A stretch of DNA of 50,501 nucleotides, from positions 1 through 50,501 of IMG/VR virus record IMGVR_UViG_3300031215_000021, one strand, 5' to 3'. This stretch comes from a virus. A model generated the notes under the pieces. That model was not told the origin of the DNA. It made no database searches and saw only the letters and a list, made by a program, of their open reading frames with translations. This document shows, piece by piece, positions 16,654 through 49,206 of this stretch (positions are counted from its first letter, which is position 1; each line of letters starts with the position of its first letter). The position numbers and the translations under genes are program-made.

Positions 16654-18591
16654 TCAAACCTTTCGGAAAATCAGAACAGGTTCGTGGTCTCTGGGGCTTA
16701 AGTTGGACAAGGGCATTTTAAGGGTGTGCAGGTGCTGAAACCCTGCCGAAATAGCAGCCTCTATGGTCATATCAACCAAAGGAGTTACGTTCCCTCTCCT
16801 ATCCCGCAAGTCATTGATGTTCAGCGCGAAGGTGCCGCCAGCTACTAGGCTGCGATATGCCTCCCTGATTACAGGCTTCAAAAAGCTGTCTACCCACTCC
16901 GCCGCACTATCACCATACTTCTTCCAAGACTGCCCCTTCTTGTCCGAATACTTCTCCCGGTCAAAGTACGGTGGAGAGGTGAATACCAGAGAAACGTCAT
17001 CAGGCACCTTAAAGGTCTCTGCCGGGTGACAATAAAGTTCTGCCTCAAGTCCTAAGTTGGAGGCAAGCTTCTGATTACCTTCCACCGTCTCAGGCTCGAT
17101 GTCTGTACCGATGTAATGCACACCGGAAGCAAGGGCTGCGAGCATACGACCCCCATACCCTGCACACGGATCCCAGACTTTATCTCCCGGCTTTGCGTAC
17201 GTCTGATAGATATACTTGGCGACTCCCGGCCTGAAAATAGTAGGGGTACGCACCTGATACTGTATTGCCTTCCTGACTCTGTAAGGGATAACCGGGTCGC
17301 CCCCTTTCAACTGTATCTGAATAGCCCTCCGCAAAAGCTTCGGATCAAACCACGCTTCGTAGGCTGACATCTGGTCACGATAGCGTGCCTTGAATCGGTT
17401 CGGGAAGTAGCTATCACATAAGCGTACCCCAAACAGCGTACGGGGCCTAATCTCAGACTCTTCTGTAAGGAAGACCTCTTTGTCTTCAAGCTTCTGAAAG
17501 CGTACCCCTACGTCGCTCAAGGGTTTCGGGAAGGGGAAAGGGGTCTTCACCAGTATCGAGTAGATCTCCTCTACCCATTGCCCCTGCTCCCCCTCAGGTA
17601 GATGCTTCCACAGAGAACTGTCATAGTTCTCAAGGGAAACTTTTGCGGCACGTCGTGAATACGAACTTCTGGGTCGGCCCATACGAGTAGGCGAACCTTC
17701 CTTATGTATCCTGCGGTGCACGGTAGACGATGACACGTCGTACAAGTCTGCAATAGCAGTGCAGGACATGCCGCCATCATAAAGCGTCCTAGCTGTGTCT
17801 GGAGTAAGCTCCCGACCTTTTTCGTAGGAGAGCTTTCTATCTGAAGGTTCGGGAATCTTGTAGGACATACAGTCGGGCACATACCCCCCAATCAACTCGA
17901 AGAACTGCATATCCTGACCGGGGAAGCAGATTGTCACAGTCCCGTCTGGGTTCTCTAGGATAGTAGGGCTAAAACCTAAATGACGTAAACCCTTGAGAGC
18001 ATACCGCAAGCTTTGGTCGTCTAAACCAAACGTTATCTGGGGGTGGTGACCACTATGCAAGCTCCCGTCATCAAGGTACCATACCGCCAAGGAAAGAGGT
18101 GTAATACCCTTTGTTAGCACCTTAGGGAACTTTCGCACATGTGCAGGCGGGGGGTAGAACAGGTCGTAAAGGTGTCTTAGCTGCAAGCAGCTTTGTGTGG
18201 TCATCCCCCACCCTGTGTAGGTCTTAGACCCTACCACTTTGGATGTGGGGTAGATAGTGGATGTGAAAGGCTGTAGCACCTCCGCTTTCCACTCAAGGTA
18301 TGGCTTCTGGTCTTCTGAATGGGTCTCGCAAAAACGAGCAGCTTCTTTACTTGTAGCACTCATCCACCCGTCCCCTAACAAAGAGCCAAATAAGACATGG
18401 TACTGCTCTTCTGTTACGTCAGGGAGACGGGCCGCAATTCTACCCGTTTTGTCCAAGGTAGGTATTCCCCATTTTTTTCGGAGTCTGCTTATCTTGGCTT
18501 GGTAAGTGCCGAGTCTCTGGGCTATCTCCGAGTCCGTTAATAAGTCAACCAAATACAGCTTCTCTACTTCATCCTTCGTAATGTCGCCCAT
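16654..18591 (-). CDS. LAGLIDADG homing endonuclease / DNA methyltransferase fusion
   Basis: A 645-aa multidomain protein. Residues about 8-44 are a helix-turn-helix (DSEIAQRLGTYQAKISRL). Residues about 65-245 hold two LAGLIDADG signatures (HVLFGSLLGDGWM and LAVWYLDDGSLH). A second helix-turn-helix follows at about 263-300 (CTAIADLYDVSSSTVHRRIH). Residues about 440-645 are a SAM-dependent DNA methyltransferase with motif I DPCAGYGGR (about 475) and motif IV TSPPYF (about 539), which is N6-adenine or N4-cytosine type. I see no intein splice signature. The gene stands apart between the capsid terminator and small genes, which suggests a mobile insert. Start: ATG 18591, with GTG 18594 as alternative. 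Confidence 0.85.
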   Translation of the reverse strand: MGDITKDEVEKLYLVDLLTDSEIAQRLGTYQAKISRLRKKWGIPTLDKTGRIAARLPDVTEEQYHVLFGSLLGDGWMSATSKEAARFCETHSEDQKPYLEWKAEVLQPFTSTIYPTSKVVGSKTYTGWGMTTQSCLQLRHLYDLFYPPPAHVRKFPKVLTKGITPLSLAVWYLDDGSLHSGHHPQITFGLDDQSLRYALKGLRHLGFSPTILENPDGTVTICFPGQDMQFFELIGGYVPDCMSYKIPEPSDRKLSYEKGRELTPDTARTLYDGGMSCTAIADLYDVSSSTVHRRIHKEGSPTRMGRPRSSYSRRAAKVSLENYDSSLWKHLPEGEQGQWVEEIYSILVKTPFPFPKPLSDVGVRFQKLEDKEVFLTEESEIRPRTLFGVRLCDSYFPNRFKARYRDQMSAYEAWFDPKLLRRAIQIQLKGGDPVIPYRVRKAIQYQVRTPTIFRPGVAKYIYQTYAKPGDKVWDPCAGYGGRMLAALASGVHYIGTDIEPETVEGNQKLASNLGLEAELYCHPAETFKVPDDVSLVFTSPPYFDREKYSDKKGQSWKKYGDSAAEWVDSFLKPVIREAYRSLVAGGTFALNINDLRDRRGNVTPLVDMTIEAAISAGFQHLHTLKMPLSNLSPRDHEPVLIFRKV

Positions 18592-18738
18592 CACTTTGTC
18601 CCATATTCAGAGGTTACCTACACTTGTAAACACACAGGCCGTACCTGCTATTCCGGCCCTGCGAAAATACGGAAAGAGCCTTTTCAAAATAGAAAATGAC
18701 CTGTTTTGAGAGCTAAATCAGGGGTGTAGACAGGGCAC

Positions 18739-42493: not shown

Positions 42494-43153
42494 TCACAGT
42501 TTTTTGAGTTGGAGGCGGTCGTTAGAGTCGGCGGTACCCCGGTAAGCGTTATCGCTCATATCCAAGAAGTCTGAATTGTGTGTGACCAGAAGGATATTGA
42601 CATCCAGTTCATCACAGAGCTTACGGAGAAAATCACCGCATGTCTCCACGTATTCCGTAGAGAGCGATGCCAGCGACTCGTCGAGTAGCAAGTAGCGACT
42701 CAAATCCGACTTCAGCACCACTAGGATGCGCAGTAGTAGTGACACCACCGCACTCACCCCTCCCCCAAAGGAATCCAGTGGATTCCCCCTACGCCCGTTC
42801 TGTTCAATAATGAAGTTGGCGTACACCTTACCACGTTTCTGCTCAACTTCAATATCAAAACTCACATTTTGGTCATGATAGATGGATTGCAACCCTTCGG
42901 AGACAATCTCGCTGAAAGACTCGGCGAACTCGTAGACGTACTTATTTAGGAGGTGCTTGAAAAGCTCTTGGACCTTCTCCAAGAGGAGGTCTTCCCCGTT
43001 TAGGCGGGTGACCTCTTCCTGAAGAAAGACCTCTTGGTCCTTAAGGGATGAATAAGTAGAACGGACCTTTTGGGACCGTACCATCATTGCCTCATACCGC
43101 TGCTCAAAAGGCAGCGTGGTGTTCTCATGCTCTTTGATAGTCTCAGTCTCCAT
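42494..43153 (-). CDS. SbcC/Rad50 ATPase, C-terminal half
   Basis: A 219-aa protein. A short coiled coil (SSLKDQEVFLQEEVTRLNGE) leads to the C-terminal ATPase lobe: ABC signature DSFGGGVSAVVSLLLR (about 127-142), Walker B YLLLDE (about 154-159) with a D-loop-like SLASLS, and the H-loop LLVTHN (about 189-194). No Walker A and no zinc-hook cysteines are present. These lie in the partner gene at 46730-47890. The start at 43153 makes a TGATG overlap with the clamp gene. An ATG at 43183 is an alternative. T4 gp46 and SbcC carry both lobes in one chain. Confidence 0.8.
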   Translation of the reverse strand: METETIKEHENTTLPFEQRYEAMMVRSQKVRSTYSSLKDQEVFLQEEVTRLNGEDLLLEKVQELFKHLLNKYVYEFAESFSEIVSEGLQSIYHDQNVSFDIEVEQKRGKVYANFIIEQNGRRGNPLDSFGGGVSAVVSLLLRILVVLKSDLSRYLLLDESLASLSTEYVETCGDFLRKLCDELDVNILLVTHNSDFLDMSDNAYRGTADSNDRLQLKKL

Positions 43154-44343
43154 CACAGGTCCATACGAAGCGTGACCAGACATGTACGGGTGTCACCGTC
43201 TTCGGTTTGCCCGAAGAATTTGACGTACTTGACCTTAGCCTCAGGGCCAGCACTTACCGCCAGCGTTACTGACTCACCGTCAAACAGTGAGACAGGATTA
43301 GTAAGGTACACCCGGTTAACCCGAAAGGCAACCTTCTCGCCAGTGGTCTTAGTTCGTGTGAAGGGGATCTCTACGACGCTCTCGTGGCGTTCAAGGGCAT
43401 CTTTCATACTAAGCGTAAGGATACCTTCGCCCCCTTCGGGGCCTTCAGCACGGACCGTCAAAACCACATCATCGGGGTCGGCGGTGGCAGACAGGGCATT
43501 GACCGCGTTCTGGAGCCGGTCCTTATTTACCTGCCAGATCTCTGGCTCGGAAAGGTCTTGGGGGATTCCGCCGATCTTCGGCAGGGTGAGGTTAGTCTGT
43601 GGGTACCCAAACAATGAACCATCATCAGACTCGACGACGTAAAGGCCCGACTTGGAGACACGAGCCGAAAGTGCACAGGTCTGCTCAATGAACTTAACCA
43701 GTTTGCCTAGTTCATCTTTCGTGATCTTAAAGCCACCCTCGCCTTCTGCGTAGAAATCCAGAGGGTTATCCTCACCTTCCGGGGCACCTACCTTGAAAGT
43801 TGCCAGCGAACGGGAATCGGTGGCTATCATATCATAGCCACGAAGCTCAGTGACTTGAAAGTTGTTTGCCGTTGCGTTGTTCGTCGTGGCATCCCCAATG
43901 AAAGGAGACACAAACTTCAACGCCTCCGTCAACTTTTTGGGATGCATCTCAAACAACACCTCAGGGCCTTCCAAGCGGTCGGAGAAGTCTGGGAACTGAG
44001 CGGAGTCTAGAGATGCGAAATGGCCCGTCGCCTTACCACACTCCATTGTCACTGTTGCCCCTTCCACTTCAACGTCAACCGTGTCTTCAAACACAGACTT
44101 GACCCACTGTGATAATCGGCCAGCTTCCACGGTAAAGGAACCAGAGCCATGTGTAGTACCTTCAACAGGGCTGGCAGGTACTTTCACCATGATGCGCCTA
44201 TCGGTGGCCCACAGGACTAGTGACCCGTCCGTATCCATCTCGAATAGAATAGAAGATGTGATCACCCCGCTATCTTTCGTAACGGCGAGGCTTGCTACCT
44301 TCAAGGCGGACTGGAGGTTGGTCTTCTCGATACTGAATCTCAT
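43153..44343 (-). CDS. dnaN: DNA polymerase III beta subunit (sliding clamp)
   Basis: A 396-aa protein with the beta-clamp layout. MRFSIEKTNLQSALKVASLA starts domain I, LVLWATDRRIMVKVPA is its diagnostic strand, and MIATDSRSLATFKVGAPEGE is the equivalent in domain II. It ends in CLVTLRMDL, like the MPMRL end of bacterial clamps. Three-domain length is about 30 residues longer than E. coli DnaN. It rings DNA and tethers polymerase and other factors. Coupled by TGATG to the SbcC C-half, RBS AGGAG. Confidence 0.88.
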   Translation of the reverse strand: MRFSIEKTNLQSALKVASLAVTKDSGVITSSILFEMDTDGSLVLWATDRRIMVKVPASPVEGTTHGSGSFTVEAGRLSQWVKSVFEDTVDVEVEGATVTMECGKATGHFASLDSAQFPDFSDRLEGPEVLFEMHPKKLTEALKFVSPFIGDATTNNATANNFQVTELRGYDMIATDSRSLATFKVGAPEGEDNPLDFYAEGEGGFKITKDELGKLVKFIEQTCALSARVSKSGLYVVESDDGSLFGYPQTNLTLPKIGGIPQDLSEPEIWQVNKDRLQNAVNALSATADPDDVVLTVRAEGPEGGEGILTLSMKDALERHESVVEIPFTRTKTTGEKVAFRVNRVYLTNPVSLFDGESVTLAVSAGPEAKVKYVKFFGQTEDGDTRTCLVTLRMDL

Positions 44344-44351
44344 AAGGACTC

Positions 44352-44612
44352 CTATTGGTCATACTTGGTTAGTTTCTCTTCCACTTCGGACAGGGCCGCT
44401 TCCGCCAAGGCTAGCTTGGCGTTGAGTTCCTTCTTTTTGTCCGGCAGAAGGCTTGGGATTTCTTTGAGCTTATAGCCTTTCTCGGCTGCCTCCTCTTTAA
44501 GAGAGCGGAGTTCTTCCTGTGCACTCTTAAGGCGGGCAACCTTCTCGGCTTTCTGAGCCATCAGGCTTTCCCGTTTCGTTTTGATGTTTTTGATTTGCTC
44601 GTCAATGGTCAT
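44352..44612 (-). CDS. Small coiled-coil protein, unknown
   Basis: An 86-aa protein from ATG 44612 behind AGAGGA. It is one long charged helix with a break (MTIDEQIKNIKTKRESLMAQ, then LPDKKKELNAKLALAEAALS), a helical hairpin. Upstream extension in this frame overlaps the preceding gene and is not needed. Lies just ahead of the clamp gene. Unknown function. Confidence 0.65.
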   Translation of the reverse strand: MTIDEQIKNIKTKRESLMAQKAEKVARLKSAQEELRSLKEEAAEKGYKLKEIPSLLPDKKKELNAKLALAEAALSEVEEKLTKYDQ

Positions 44613-44617
44613 GATGC

Positions 44618-44845
44618 TTATCCTCTGTTGTGTTTGTGGTCCTGTAGGGCGTTGCGATAATGGTCGGCCATGTACCCAAATTCTACGAGAGTCGAAATAA
44701 CCTCCCACCGGTCGACACTGGTAGGTATCTGTGCTCCCGTATCCATCAACAGCGTAGCAGTACCATCATCTTCGGTACGCAGGCCGATGATAGATTCGGC
44801 GCACACATCGATTCTTCCAATAGTCAAGTTGAGTAGACGCTTCAT
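44618..44845 (-). CDS. Small protein, unknown
   Basis: A 75-aa protein starting in an ATGA overlap with the nuclease gene. It has three predicted strands (LLNLTIGRIDVCAESI, TATLLMDTGAQIP) and a helix with histidines (FGYMADHYRNALQDHKHNRG). No family recognised. Confidence 0.6.
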   Translation of the reverse strand: MKRLLNLTIGRIDVCAESIIGLRTEDDGTATLLMDTGAQIPTSVDRWEVISTLVEFGYMADHYRNALQDHKHNRG

Positions 44846-45762
44846 TTGGTATCCTCTAGCTTCCCGCCGAAACCTATCATAACAGACCCTTCGCTACTTT
44901 TCGAGAGGGGAGGGAGCGTTTCCTCTCCCCGTTCGGCTCTGTTCCATCTTTTCTTTTCTCTTGCTGCCATGATCTGTTGCTGTCTTTCTGTGCAAACAGT
45001 TTCGTAAGGGCACCACTTGCATGTAGAGGGCGACGGGGTTGCGCCAAAGCGTTTCTTCTGGATGTTCGTGAAGGCGGCGACAAGATTCTGTCGTATCTTC
45101 TCTTCTGACTCGGCATCGGGTACATGCCAATCGAATGCCTGTTCCTCGTCATCTGCAAACCGGTAGTAGAAATAGCCGACCTTATCTGGGCGGCGGTTGT
45201 GTACTAACCGGAACGCCAGAGAATAGAAGTCCACCTGCTCCTCGTCAACATACTTCTCACGGTGCTTGGAGGCTTTCCCGTCAATGAGCAACACTTCGTT
45301 GGTTGACTGTCGGATAAGAAAATCGACGATACCGTAGAGGTAGTAGCTAGACTGGAGTTGCGCACGGAGAATAATCTCACTGCGAGCGTACGGGCCAAGC
45401 AGCTTCTCACGTTTGATACCTGTGAGAACCTTCGGGATGATTTCCTCAATCTGAGCCAGCATTTCCATTGGCTCTAGCTTGCACGTAATGTCATTGAAAT
45501 CTACGTGATTCTCATCGAGGTACTGGTAGAAGTATTTAGGGGCAAGTTCGAGAAGTGCGTCAGATACCTTACCTCTCAGCCGCCATAGCTCTTGATTGTA
45601 GAAGTCCTCGTAAACACGCTGGACGGTCCAGCCTATAACAGCGAAGTGCTTGGACTCCGGCGTAGGAGGGTCTTTACGTTCAACTCTCGAAAGCCTGTAC
45701 CTCTTAGGGCAATCCCTATAGGTTTTGTAGCCAGAGTACGATAACCAATATTCCTTTCCCAT
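44842..45762 (-). CDS. PD-(D/E)XK nuclease, RecB/Cas4-like
   Basis: A 306-aa protein. The nuclease core reads LYGIVDFLIR (Asp147) and LLIDGKAS (Asp161, Lys163), the PD-(D/E)XK pair, with QVDFYSLAFRL as the following Q-x-x-x-Y helix. Cys18 (YRDCPKRY) and the C-terminal CKWCPYETVC (Cys248, 251, 257) form the four-cysteine set that holds an iron-sulphur cluster in Cas4, AddB and Dna2 nucleases. It probably resects DNA ends together with the adjoining SbcD and RecA. Confidence 0.82.
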   Translation of the reverse strand: MGKEYWLSYSGYKTYRDCPKRYRLSRVERKDPPTPESKHFAVIGWTVQRVYEDFYNQELWRLRGKVSDALLELAPKYFYQYLDENHVDFNDITCKLEPMEMLAQIEEIIPKVLTGIKREKLLGPYARSEIILRAQLQSSYYLYGIVDFLIRQSTNEVLLIDGKASKHREKYVDEEQVDFYSLAFRLVHNRRPDKVGYFYYRFADDEEQAFDWHVPDAESEEKIRQNLVAAFTNIQKKRFGATPSPSTCKWCPYETVCTERQQQIMAAREKKRWNRAERGEETLPPLSKSSEGSVMIGFGGKLEDTK

Positions 45763-45767
45763 ATATG

Positions 45768-46733
45768 CTACCCTACGGCTTCTTCGAGGTATTTCAGCGC
45801 GCGGCTTCGTACGTCGTGGTCGAAATCTTCCAAGCCTTGAATGGCTTTTGTCATGTCATCTTCTTCATTGACGGTAGCAGACCGCTGTAGCGTTTCGATG
45901 AAGTGGTCAATATCTTTCCGCTCCGCCTTAATCCGCTCGTGATTTTCTAGGTCGAAAACTTCGGATGCAGGCTTGACCTTGATAGGGATAGGCTCTGTAG
46001 TGATAACAGCCTTCCCATCAATCTTCTCCACCTTGATGTATCCGATACGAGGTATGCGCTCCAGATTGTCGTGAGTCAGCGCCCCTCGGGTAAGAGATCC
46101 AAGGTTCATAAAGGGCTTCCCTAAGACCTCTTGGATGCCTTGGTCAATGTGCCAGTGGCCGAAGATGAAGAGGTCGGGGGTACACTCCGCAAGGTCCGTA
46201 TAGGCTAGCGCGCGTTCCCTTCCAAAGAAGTCTCCCCCTTTAGGAGAGGCAAAGGTGTGGGCCGCTACAATAAGCACGTCCTCATCACCTCTCTCGATGT
46301 CAAAATCAAACTCGTCGAACTCTGTTTTGTACGGCAGACCTACGACCCGCACAACAAGTCCCTCGTCATCTTCAAAGCGAATATCGTCCATACGCTTGAA
46401 AACGCCTGTAGAGAACAACACGCCTAGAGGCTGCTTTTCAACGTAATCCACGTTGGCGTAAGGAAAGTCGTGGTTGCCGGGGTTCTCGTAAGTAGGGCAA
46501 GGGTAGGCAGCATGAACCTCCGCCACCCTACGCACGAGTAGGTGGCTGTTACGAGACGCAGCCTTGTTATGGAAGAAGTCGCCGTTGTCTAGGACGGCGT
46601 TGACCTTCCTTTCACGGGCGAGATCCCCTATCTGTTCCAGCTTCTCAAGTACGGACTCCATATAGTCGTCACGCCTTGATTCAGGTGGTTTGTCATTGAT
46701 GTGTACATCCGTCCGTACGAGAAACGAAATCAT
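45768..46733 (-). CDS. SbcD/Mre11-type nuclease
   Basis: A 321-aa calcineurin-like phosphoesterase. The metal-binding motifs are in order: TDVHIN (Asp9, His11), NGDFFHN (about 50-56), PGNHDFPY (about 85-92), AAHTF (His159) and FGHWHIDQG (about 191-199). This is the Mre11/SbcD/T4 gp47 pattern, the nuclease partner of Rad50/SbcC. I chose ATG 46733, which has AGGAGG upstream and an ATGA overlap with the SbcC N-half. A start nine codons earlier fits worse. Confidence 0.88.
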   Translation of the reverse strand: MISFLVRTDVHINDKPPESRRDDYMESVLEKLEQIGDLARERKVNAVLDNGDFFHNKAASRNSHLLVRRVAEVHAAYPCPTYENPGNHDFPYANVDYVEKQPLGVLFSTGVFKRMDDIRFEDDEGLVVRVVGLPYKTEFDEFDFDIERGDEDVLIVAAHTFASPKGGDFFGRERALAYTDLAECTPDLFIFGHWHIDQGIQEVLGKPFMNLGSLTRGALTHDNLERIPRIGYIKVEKIDGKAVITTEPIPIKVKPASEVFDLENHERIKAERKDIDHFIETLQRSATVNEEDDMTKAIQGLEDFDHDVRSRALKYLEEAVG

Positions 46734-47890
46734 ACAACCTCCTGTTCGCAGGTAGGACACTGACCGGCGTCGTGTAGGATGTCGTGCACCTCTGTCTGGG
46801 AAGCCTCTATCTGAGCATCTAACTCTAGGATAGCCTTCTTCAATGCGGGAATCTGACCTACTGCCGCTTCCAGCTTGGAAGCCATTGCTTCCAGCATTGC
46901 TAGCTCGGTCGCCAGTGCGTCCAAGTCTATCACCGGTACTTCCAAGTCTTCCAGACCATCGCCAGCGTCTAAAACAGCCTTCAGTCGCTTAGAGCGGGTC
47001 TCAAATGAGTCTAGCTCGTGTATCTGAGAAAGAAGCCCCTCATCATCCCATACCGGGATGGTAATGTCGTCAATACCCTCATACTGCGTCAAGGTCTTCT
47101 CAGTCCTCAGCCTTCTTGCCTCCAACTGAGACAAGGTATCAATTTCTTTCTGAATGGAGTCGCCCTCCCATTCCGGGATAGACACGGAGTCCACGCCAGT
47201 AAGAGTATCAATCCGACCTACAAAAGTCGCACGCTTTCCCTCTAACCACTCAAGATCACTTATCATTGCCCTGATTTGGCCGACCTCAGCGTAGTAGGCT
47301 TTCACTTCATCTACCTGTTTCATATCGTCTTTGTAGTCATCATAGTGCGTAAGCTCATCTTGGGTAGCCGCCAAGTCTGTCTTGCGGACCTTACGGGTGC
47401 TACGAACCTCACGACGATCTTTGTCGCAGTTCCTTAACGCCGTCTGTAAGTCGGTAAGACGACCGACGTCGGAGATTGCCTCTGCCGCCACAGAGCCGGA
47501 GGCATTGAGAAGAAAGAGGGGGTGGAATTGGTCAGCTATCTGAACGCTGATAGACTCTCTCCCTGCCTCAATCTCCCCAAAGCCCGACTCGGCTATGTGC
47601 GGGGGTGCTCCCCGACCTACCTTCTCCAAGGCTTCACCATTGATAGTGTAGTCATTGAAGTCGCCACCCTTCTTCCATAGAAGGTCTAGCTTATCGGTCT
47701 GGAGGTGTACCTCGGTGTGGTCTTTGCCCTCAGTTACGAAATCTTCGCCCTCACGGTTCGTGAGGGCACCTTGGATTGCTCGGATTACGGCTGACTTACC
47801 GATATTGGACTTACCTACCAACACCGTCAACCCATCAATCTTCACCTCGCAATCTTCAATCGATTGGAAATTTTTGATGGATACTTTCAC
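46730..47890 (-). CDS. SbcC/Rad50 ATPase, N-terminal half ending at the zinc hook
   Basis: A 386-aa protein with a GTG start overlapping the recA stop (GTGA) behind GGGGAG. MKVSIKNFQSIEDCEVKIDG with LVGKSNIGKSAVIRA (Walker A, about 26-33) is the N-terminal SbcC/Rad50 lobe. A Q-loop region and a coiled coil (about 150-370) follow, and the chain stops five residues after CPTC (Cys378, Cys381), the zinc-hook motif. The second lobe is missing and is found at 42494-43153. The two would assemble into a complete ATPase. Confidence 0.82.
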   Translation of the reverse strand: MKVSIKNFQSIEDCEVKIDGLTVLVGKSNIGKSAVIRAIQGALTNREGEDFVTEGKDHTEVHLQTDKLDLLWKKGGDFNDYTINGEALEKVGRGAPPHIAESGFGEIEAGRESISVQIADQFHPLFLLNASGSVAAEAISDVGRLTDLQTALRNCDKDRREVRSTRKVRKTDLAATQDELTHYDDYKDDMKQVDEVKAYYAEVGQIRAMISDLEWLEGKRATFVGRIDTLTGVDSVSIPEWEGDSIQKEIDTLSQLEARRLRTEKTLTQYEGIDDITIPVWDDEGLLSQIHELDSFETRSKRLKAVLDAGDGLEDLEVPVIDLDALATELAMLEAMASKLEAAVGQIPALKKAILELDAQIEASQTEVHDILHDAGQCPTCEQEVV

Positions 47891-49206
47891 GCGTCCAACT
47901 CCCCTTCAAGGCTCTCTTCAAGGAAGAGTGCTGTGGCGGGGTTATCACTGAGGTGTTCAATCGCCGCCTCTTTGCCTCGCACACTGTGCTCTTCACCCTC
48001 CTCATCAGTGAACTTATACCACGGACCTGCTTGGTCGATAAGCCCCTCTTCTACGGCCCTTTCCACCAAAGATACGATGGCGGGGTCTTCGAACGACTCG
48101 GAGCCTACACCCTCAGTGCTTGGCGCTGCTCCCGGCCCTCCAATACTGGAGAATGACGACACCTGTTGCACAAGATGGGCGAACTGTGACTGGTTCTCAA
48201 AGAGAAAGTCCCGCACGGCTTCTTTGCCCTGCAAGCTCTGCTCAACACCCGTCGAGTCAACGAACTTATACCACGCCCCGCTCCGATTGAGGATCTTCCG
48301 GTTCTCTGCAATGTCCATGATGCTACGCACATTGTCGATACCCTCACCGTACCGGAGGACGAAATCGGTGGAGTGACCTTGGTGCATGGAGCACTTATTC
48401 TTCACGTTCTGTGCTCGAACGATGTTGCAGATTGGCTGCTTCTCGCTATTCCCTGTCAGGTTGTTTTCGACCTTGGTATACTCCGTCCGTGTACGCTTTA
48501 GCTTTAGCCGGAGAGATGCGTAATACTTCAAAGCGCGACCCCCACTGGTGCCCTCATCAGGGCCGGTGTCATACTTGCTGGTCTTGATGCGTGACCGCAT
48601 CTGATTGAGGTATATCAGAGCCGTACCAGACTTACGCAGGTCGTGTACAAGGTTGGGCAAAAACATTGACTGTAACCTCGCAAGAAGACCAATCTGGCCT
48701 TGCTCGCTGGGGTCTTTTTCAAAGGTTGCCTGAGGTACCATCGCAGACACTGAGTCCACGATAATCAAATCGACCCCGGCGTTCACCATGATCTTGATGA
48801 TTTCGGCACCCTCTTCCCATGTAGTAGGAGAGTAGAGATCCCACTTATCCTCGTTAAAATCCACCCCAAGGGACTGTGCGTAAGCTGGAGCGATTGCGTT
48901 CTCAAAGTCCAAAAAGACTACAGAGCCACCATCTTGCTGGCACTTAATGGCCGTCTCAAGGGCTAGGGTGGTTTTACCACTACCCTCAGGACCGTAGATC
49001 TCAGTCATCCGGCCTCGGGGGATGCCGGGACACTGGCGTTGGCCGTTAGATAGCTTATTACCCCCAATTAGGTAGTCAATGACAAGTGAACCTGTCGAGA
49101 TAGCAGGGATAGCCTGCATGTTCTCGGGGTCCAGTTCCACTCTGTTCTTGAAATCCACTTTGGAGTTTTTCTTCAAGGCAGCGCGTGCCTTTGCTAGATT
49201 AGACAT
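47887..49206 (-). CDS. recA: RecA recombinase with duplicated C-terminal domain
   Basis: A 439-aa protein. The core has Walker A GPEGSGKTT (about 72-80), the VVFLDFENA catalytic strand (Glu102), Walker B LIIVDSVSA (about 147-155), YLNQMRSRI (L2-like) and GGRALKYYASLRLKLKR. A bacterial-type RecA C-terminal domain follows (RSGAWYKFVDSTG, LQGKEAVRDFLFEN). After a linker a second copy of it occurs (QAGPWYKFTDEEG, VRGKEAAIEHLSDN). E. coli RecA has one such domain and is about 85 residues shorter. It forms filaments on ssDNA for strand exchange. Confidence 0.9.
   Translation of the reverse strand: MSNLAKARAALKKNSKVDFKNRVELDPENMQAIPAISTGSLVIDYLIGGNKLSNGQRQCPGIPRGRMTEIYGPEGSGKTTLALETAIKCQQDGGSVVFLDFENAIAPAYAQSLGVDFNEDKWDLYSPTTWEEGAEIIKIMVNAGVDLIIVDSVSAMVPQATFEKDPSEQGQIGLLARLQSMFLPNLVHDLRKSGTALIYLNQMRSRIKTSKYDTGPDEGTSGGRALKYYASLRLKLKRTRTEYTKVENNLTGNSEKQPICNIVRAQNVKNKCSMHQGHSTDFVLRYGEGIDNVRSIMDIAENRKILNRSGAWYKFVDSTGVEQSLQGKEAVRDFLFENQSQFAHLVQQVSSFSSIGGPGAAPSTEGVGSESFEDPAIVSLVERAVEEGLIDQAGPWYKFTDEEGEEHSVRGKEAAIEHLSDNPATALFLEESLEGELDA

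Follow-up and report, generated by a model that had tools for sequence, protein, structure and literature searches.

The window is the whole stretch of DNA analysed, an IMG/VR virus record of 50,501 bases (a 50.5-kb fragment), and a DNA-level comparison of it with known phages gave no match. Read in the direction of transcription, on the minus strand, the locus of interest runs ruvC, recA, the gene for the N-terminal lobe of a Rad50/SbcC-type ATPase (N-lobe), sbcD, a Cas4/RecB-like nuclease gene, a 75-aa ORF, the gene for a small companion protein (S), the sliding clamp gene and the gene for a C-terminal ATPase lobe (C-lobe). The features are as follows.

47887..49206, minus strand: RecA/UvsX-type recombinase (Pfam RecA, E 4.3e-52), directly upstream of the N-lobe gene and overlapping its start
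46730..47890, minus strand: N-lobe, Rad50/SbcC-type ATPase, 386 aa; the GTG start overlaps the recA stop
47792..47815, minus strand: Walker A GKSNIGKS, N-lobe residues 26-33; G26, G31 and K32 invariant
46748..46759, minus strand: zinc-hook CPTC, N-lobe residues 378-381, 5 residues before the stop
45768..46733, minus strand: SbcD/Mre11-type phosphoesterase (Pfam Metallophos, E 1.7e-12); the ATG overlaps the N-lobe stop
44842..45762, minus strand: PD-(D/E)XK (Cas4/RecB-like) nuclease (Pfam PDDEXK_1, E 1.8e-23; PHROG 69 exonuclease)
44618..44845, minus strand: 75-aa ORF, function unassigned; overlaps the nuclease stop
44352..44612, minus strand: S, 86-aa coiled-coil protein, from the S profile; likely start 44612
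43153..44343, minus strand: sliding clamp (DNA polymerase processivity factor; PHROG 947, E 4.8e-29; Pfam DNA_pol3_beta), between S and the C-lobe
42494..43153, minus strand: C-lobe, Rad50/SbcC-type ATPase, with helix, signature, Walker B and H-loop
42758..42769, minus strand: ABC signature position, FGGG replacing LSGG[QE], by alignment to Rad50
42677..42694, minus strand: Walker B LLLLDE, by C-lobe alignment
42578..42580, minus strand: H-loop His (VTHN), by C-lobe alignment

A first-pass annotation had proposed that SbcC/Rad50 is split here into two genes exactly at the zinc hook. The proposal holds: profile and fold comparisons both link the two halves to Rad50, and it is at the hook that the chain is broken. 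The N-lobe comprises Walker A, a Q-loop, a long interrupted coiled-coil arm and a C-terminal CPTC, and the ORF at 46730-47890 (minus strand) ends in ...GQCPTCEQEVV and a stop, five residues after the CPTC as had been stated. The genes described between the halves (sbcD, a Cas4-like nuclease, two small genes and the clamp) are all present. The C-lobe, given as a separate gene at 42494, is indeed a separate ORF, 229 aa at its longest (42494-43183, minus strand). Its start needs adjustment, as the ATG at 43153, which overlaps the clamp stop and yields 219 aa, is likelier than 43183.

The phosphoesterase motifs DxH, GD, GNHD, H and GHxH are conserved in the window SbcD and its relatives, in keeping with membership of that family. 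The PD-(D/E)XK nuclease is a conserved neighbour, and a Pfam search with the 75-aa ORF returned no match. Elsewhere in the window, a 646-aa ORF (16654-18594) matches a DNA methyltransferase near the C-terminal part and has a LAGLIDADG homing endonuclease inside, perhaps as an intein.

Could the break be a recent artefact or a product of decay, with a single SbcC gene interrupted by a frameshift or an intron or reduced to a pseudogene? Only the single chain of canonical SbcC speaks in favour. The halves are separated by several intact genes. The two lobe genes overlap their neighbours at start and stop codons (GTGA for recA/N-lobe, ATGA for N-lobe/sbcD and TGATG for clamp/C-lobe), so they are intact. 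The same break also recurs in 51 distinct N-lobes and on plasmids with other layouts. The codon overlaps and the conservation across diverse genomes led to rejection of a frameshift or pseudogene, and artefact or decay in any form is scarcely conceivable.

Two half ATPases and their probable pairing

The profile built from 33 N-lobes finds Rad50 heads and, with its very end, the zinc-hook fragments 6zff and 1l8d. Across 33 sequences the Walker A and Q-loop residues G26, G31, K32 and Q121 are invariant, as are both hook cysteines. The last 67 residues of the N-lobe on their own find the Pyrococcus Rad50 hook 1l8d as best match (E 6.3e-6), in an alignment that runs through CPvCGre up to the split point. 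The tail's other matches are to coiled coils in general, and the weight of the match to 1l8d therefore rests on the CPxC part. In 51 of 52 distinct N-lobes the only CxxC of the chain lies 3-16 residues before the stop, which puts a break at the hook end far beyond chance. The exception, without CxxC, is the N-lobe of Microbacterium phage Magritte (L002:4992-6044). This is a natural variant without the hook in which N-lobe, C-lobe and SbcD are all present and no S is clear; the zinc hook is apparently dispensable in at least one phage. Two further N-lobe genes (L079:3364-5610 and L080:2623-4743) have a large in-frame insertion with intein-like ends directly after the Walker A Gly-Lys.

The arm that follows the head is about 230 aa long in the window and 208-305 residues long among homologues. 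Conserved Pro-containing loops break it into helices of 26-53 residues, with a variable number of repeats. Confidence in the N-lobe model is moderate (pLDDT 77, pTM 0.35); its best Foldseek match is the Rad50 N-lobe, and it places helices at 144-184, 186-230, 244-269, 283-309 and 323-375, followed by the CPTC. Because the model of the arm is weak, the arm could fold back, in which case the hook would not be distal. A related alternative is that the helices zig-zag into a compact bundle and that the CPTC, near the head, is a structural zinc site and not a dimerising hook. The loops, the variable repeat number and the low overall confidence of the model all suit this idea. However, the last 60 residues align with the hook helix and hairpin of Rad50, and the only CxxC in the chain supplies two cysteines per chain, which fits a shared zinc. 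A compact bundle is therefore unlikely, but not negligibly so. The preferred reading is a predicted zinc site of the Rad50 hook type, with the CxxC aligned to the Rad50 hook but located at the chain end.

A profile of 56 C-lobes matches the C-terminal lobe of Rad50 (3qkr_B, E 5e-7), and the AlphaFold model is confident (pLDDT 94) with Rad50 as top Foldseek match. It consists of a single helix (residues 2-77, 76 residues) followed by lobe II. About 45 of the helix residues are judged to protrude as coil, and the arm lengths in the first-pass annotation (about 200 residues against about 40) were thus approximately right. The Walker B and H-loop residues D144, E145 and H178 (numbered on a 205-aa segment) are invariant in the 56 C-lobes. 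The signature Ser is absent from all 67 distinct C-lobes, which mostly read FGG[GA] where LSGG[QE] is canonical. A Ser-less signature common to the family fits a single origin of the split form, and ATP-driven engagement may differ from the usual. Neither half alone has a complete ATP site, as had been noted earlier: Walker A and the Q-loop are on the N-lobe, and the signature, Walker B and H-loop are on the C-lobe.

Do the two lobes pair? Perhaps they are not partners, and each acts alone or with other proteins, for example the N-lobe with SbcD and the C-lobe with the clamp. Gene order is compatible with this, given that the C-lobe gene follows the clamp gene in most phage loci, that the two lobe genes are sometimes more than 100 kb apart and that SbcD is fused to the N-lobe only. 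However, co-evolution points to a partnership. Patristic distances were compared for 15 pairs of genes in 31 loci with all six genes. N-C shows the highest correlation (r = 0.948) and the highest partial correlation (0.61, bootstrap 0.46-0.73), followed by the SbcD-nuclease partial correlation at 0.40, and the C-clamp value is about zero although these two genes overlap. In other words, the N- and C-lobes co-evolve most although the C-lobe gene adjoins that of the clamp and not that of the N-lobe. Pairing is supported by this co-evolution and by natural fusions that join exactly these two lobes in permuted order (see below). Since neither half has a complete ATP site either, it is improbable that the lobes are not partners.

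Distribution in phages and plasmids

A search of viral contigs with the C-lobe profile gave 80 loci, many in contigs of 100-540 kb, and removal of near-duplicates left 68 distinct C-lobes and 52 distinct N-lobes. The phages fall into two groups, one with the N-lobe directly upstream of sbcD and one with the N-lobe far from the C-lobe. A search of whole records found the N-lobe as a separate ORF in 15 of the 30 records that have no complete one near the C-lobe. The records without an N-lobe match are mostly fragments of less than 111 kb. Three records of 193-274 kb (G005, G011 and G024; loci L028, L036 and L068) have a C-lobe and no detectable N-lobe, and an N profile from group-2 phages found no match in them. 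Gene order also varies; Bacillus phage vB_BboS-125 has N, a homing-type gene, S, C and SbcD. The SbcD gene of this phage (L146:11247-12227) is unannotated in its GenBank record.

A full-length SbcC elsewhere in the genome, named in the first-pass annotation as one finding that would speak against a split, did not turn up in the 30 large relatives searched. The phrog_77 search of these phage records found the two halves and a few coil-only matches in long ORFs, and no full-length SbcC. Fused forms are detectable by these searches, because phrog_77 finds separate full-length SbcC-like genes on three plasmids, and single-chain SbcD::SbcC fusions with both lobes and canonical LSGGQ were found in IME392 (L006:4092-6857) and phiLo (L007:4008-6608). 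A survey of related phages for fused and split forms had also been suggested; it places the fused form in IME392 and phiLo and shows the split to be widespread in phages and plasmids. That the split is widespread, and that S is a conserved companion, both go beyond the earlier reading. Scans of cellular genomes with C-lobe patterns gave at first none and then six candidates, which were rejected as they look like ABC transporters. A role in defence was also discarded: PADLOC gave only partial matches, to ATPase domains from many systems; no protein was matched over its whole length, and S had no match.

The plasmid loci add other layouts. The order on pB6464 is SbcD-N-S-C. In Geobacillus, Paenibacillus, Brevibacillus and Aneurinibacillus the plasmids encode an SbcD::N fusion followed by S and then C (the identification of S in Aneurinibacillus, Brevibacillus and Paenibacillus thiaminolyticus owes less to score than to gene position, length and resemblance to the P. 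polymyxa gene), and in Jeotgalibacillus the D::N gene adjoins S with C 74 kb away. These fusions tie SbcD to the N-lobe; they end at the hook, and the C-lobe is encoded by a gene of its own.

A fusion of another kind is found on pMPPla107, where a 635-aa protein has the C-lobe first and the N-lobe second and ends in CPTCQQSMNGVHAHV. A tblastn search with this permuted C::N protein found 21 plasmid records, and in 9 of them (from Pseudomonas, Vibrio, Variovorax and Bosea) 80% or more of the query is covered at a single site; shorter matches are from Alteromonas, Rhizobium, Methylorubrum, Acidiphilium and Aeromonas. All four further proteins examined (Pseudomonas Leaf58, Variovorax, Bosea and Alteromonas) have the order C then N and only one CxxC, placed 7-18 residues before the C-terminus. 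The gene just upstream of C::N is S-like in Pseudomonas Leaf58, Variovorax and Bosea, and the one just downstream encodes a metallophosphoesterase in Variovorax and Bosea. The C::N fusion ties the N-lobe to the C-lobe as partners. Read from its sequence, it is a natural circular permutation of Rad50 opened at the hook, with the new C-terminus at the hook. The survey as a whole indicates that many phages and large plasmids encode Rad50/SbcC in separate pieces, opened at the zinc hook, usually together with a small coiled-coil protein.

The companion protein and a proposed assembly

S is about 86-97 aa long with a central G-x-D-P-x-x-L break, and is probably a helical hairpin. A profile started from seven loci matches in 76 of 84 C-lobe loci (duplicates included), and S alone led to four further contigs, all with a C-lobe except one that ends just after S. 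A comparison of the window S with PHROG gave no match. S is encoded between nuclease and clamp in phages, and beside N or C on plasmids. Its presence in so many C-lobe loci and its place beside N or C on plasmids make S a candidate, and probably the actual, third subunit of split SbcC. This claim is limited by the co-evolution measure, which gives S no strong partner (partial correlations of 0.08 with N and 0.12 with C in 31 loci).

What if S stands outside the ATPase, as a small protein in its own right (perhaps an accessory of the clamp or the nuclease) that travels in the operon? Its position in phages and its small partial correlations would fit, and S was not found in a search of Tunturi_5, although the N-lobe of this phage has a CxxC. 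The same search in Magritte gave only a weak, probably chance match. However, S on plasmids without an adjacent clamp or nuclease gene still lies between N and C, directly after D::N or before C::N. Similarly, G029 has N, S and SbcD together, with S directly after N and C elsewhere, far away. An S independent of the ATPase is accordingly doubtful, and a third subunit is the preferred reading. A part for S as a length-matched descending arm is unsupported. S and the C-lobe helix each keep a constant length while the N-arm runs from 208 to 305 residues, and because the lengths do not covary S and the C-lobe helix do not amount to a matched descending arm.

The reading that we favour, at a probability of about 85%, is that the locus encodes a DNA-end-processing nuclease of the Mre11-Rad50 (SbcCD) kind, in which Rad50 consists of separate pieces and its chain is opened at the zinc hook. 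Each Rad50-type half-head would be built from an N-lobe and a C-lobe that meet at the lobe interface, and the C-lobe helix would pair with the start of the N-arm as far as a conserved LxxYxGLD break. Two half-heads would sandwich ATP and drive an SbcD dimer, presumably bound at the neck, on DNA ends that feed the adjacent RecA. The first-pass annotation had raised the question of how the hook is presented. The N-chain alone might do so, without a descending helix from the same chain, and the CxxC motifs of two N-arms would share one zinc, as in Rad50. S would most likely take the place of the missing partner by packing against the N-arm, close to either the hook or the neck. The likely job is DNA-end processing for recombination-dependent replication, as suggested by the recA and ruvC neighbours and the known role of SbcCD and T4 gp46/gp47. 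Counting against the favoured reading are the Ser-less signature, the weak model of the N-arm, the lack of a CxxC in Magritte, the missing S match in Tunturi_5 and the three large records with a C-lobe and no N-lobe match.

A more far-reaching idea, to which we give slightly less than an even chance, is that these systems are an unrecognised branch of Mre11-Rad50. Rad50 would then be a three-part protein (N-lobe with hook, S and C-lobe) or a hook-opened circular permutant, S would be the coiled-coil partner for the missing descending arm, and hook dimerisation would run via the C-termini of the N-chains only.

Comparison with known systems

The usual description of Rad50 is of a single chain whose two matched arms meet at the hook, with both arms taken to carry signals between the head and the hook. 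The split questions the idea that a Rad50 machine needs one chain with two matched arms. In these phages and plasmids evolution has opened the chain at the hook and, in the case of megaplasmids, joined the pieces again in permuted order. The need for the second arm, the hook and the signature serine can now be asked about directly, and cultured carriers are at hand in Bacillus phage vB_BboS-125, Tunturiibacter phage Tunturi_5 and the apparently hook-less Microbacterium phage Magritte. The assignment also unites in one putative machine a small protein without a name and two families that had been catalogued apart. PHROG 16465 (exonuclease) matches the N-lobe and PHROG 15167 (ATPase) matches the C-lobe; the catalogue treats them as separate families and does not link them as parts of a single protein.

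A search of the open-access literature found no account of a Rad50/SbcC that is split at the hook or permuted. The Rad50 hook has been treated as a dimerisation module (PMC6969161) with a minimal unit of a 14-residue CXXC hairpin (PMC9569753), and papers on jumbo phages treat SbcC as a single gene (PMC7824862, PMC5105663). Close natural relatives are single-chain Mre11/Rad50 fusions (Mimivirus R555 and others; PMC3175470), which have the same SbcD-Rad50 linkage and the same viral and plasmid distribution. Fusions in Anaerostipes and Bacillus phage 0305phi8-36 were reported to be without one P-loop segment, which was left unexplained (Yoshida et al., 2011; PMC3175470). These may be in the same state as the plasmid D::N fusions. 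In contrast, the IME392 and phiLo fusions keep both lobes in one chain with LSGGQ. A precedent for two polypeptides forming one ATPase head is found in the engineered split Rad50 heads (PDB 1F2T/1F2U, 1II8; chains 1f2t_A of 149 aa and 1f2t_B of 148 aa), but these are man-made and without full arms or hook.

A close comparison is also that with SbcCD/Mre11-Rad50 itself (E. coli SbcC, Pyrococcus Rad50 and T4 gp46/gp47). The split family has the same lobe folds, Walker A, Q-loop, Walker B, H-loop, CPxC motif of the predicted hook and SbcD phosphoesterase partner. It differs in that the chain is split open at the hook into two genes plus S, with no matched descending arm, in its signature of [FYR]GG[GAS] and not LSGG[QE], and in a total for N and C of about 600 aa. 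One chain with two equal-length coiled-coil arms is not what is found (there are two genes and no length correlation), and because of this and the signature the split family is not filed as canonical SbcC. Nevertheless, it is homologous to Mre11-Rad50 and is likely to act in the same way.
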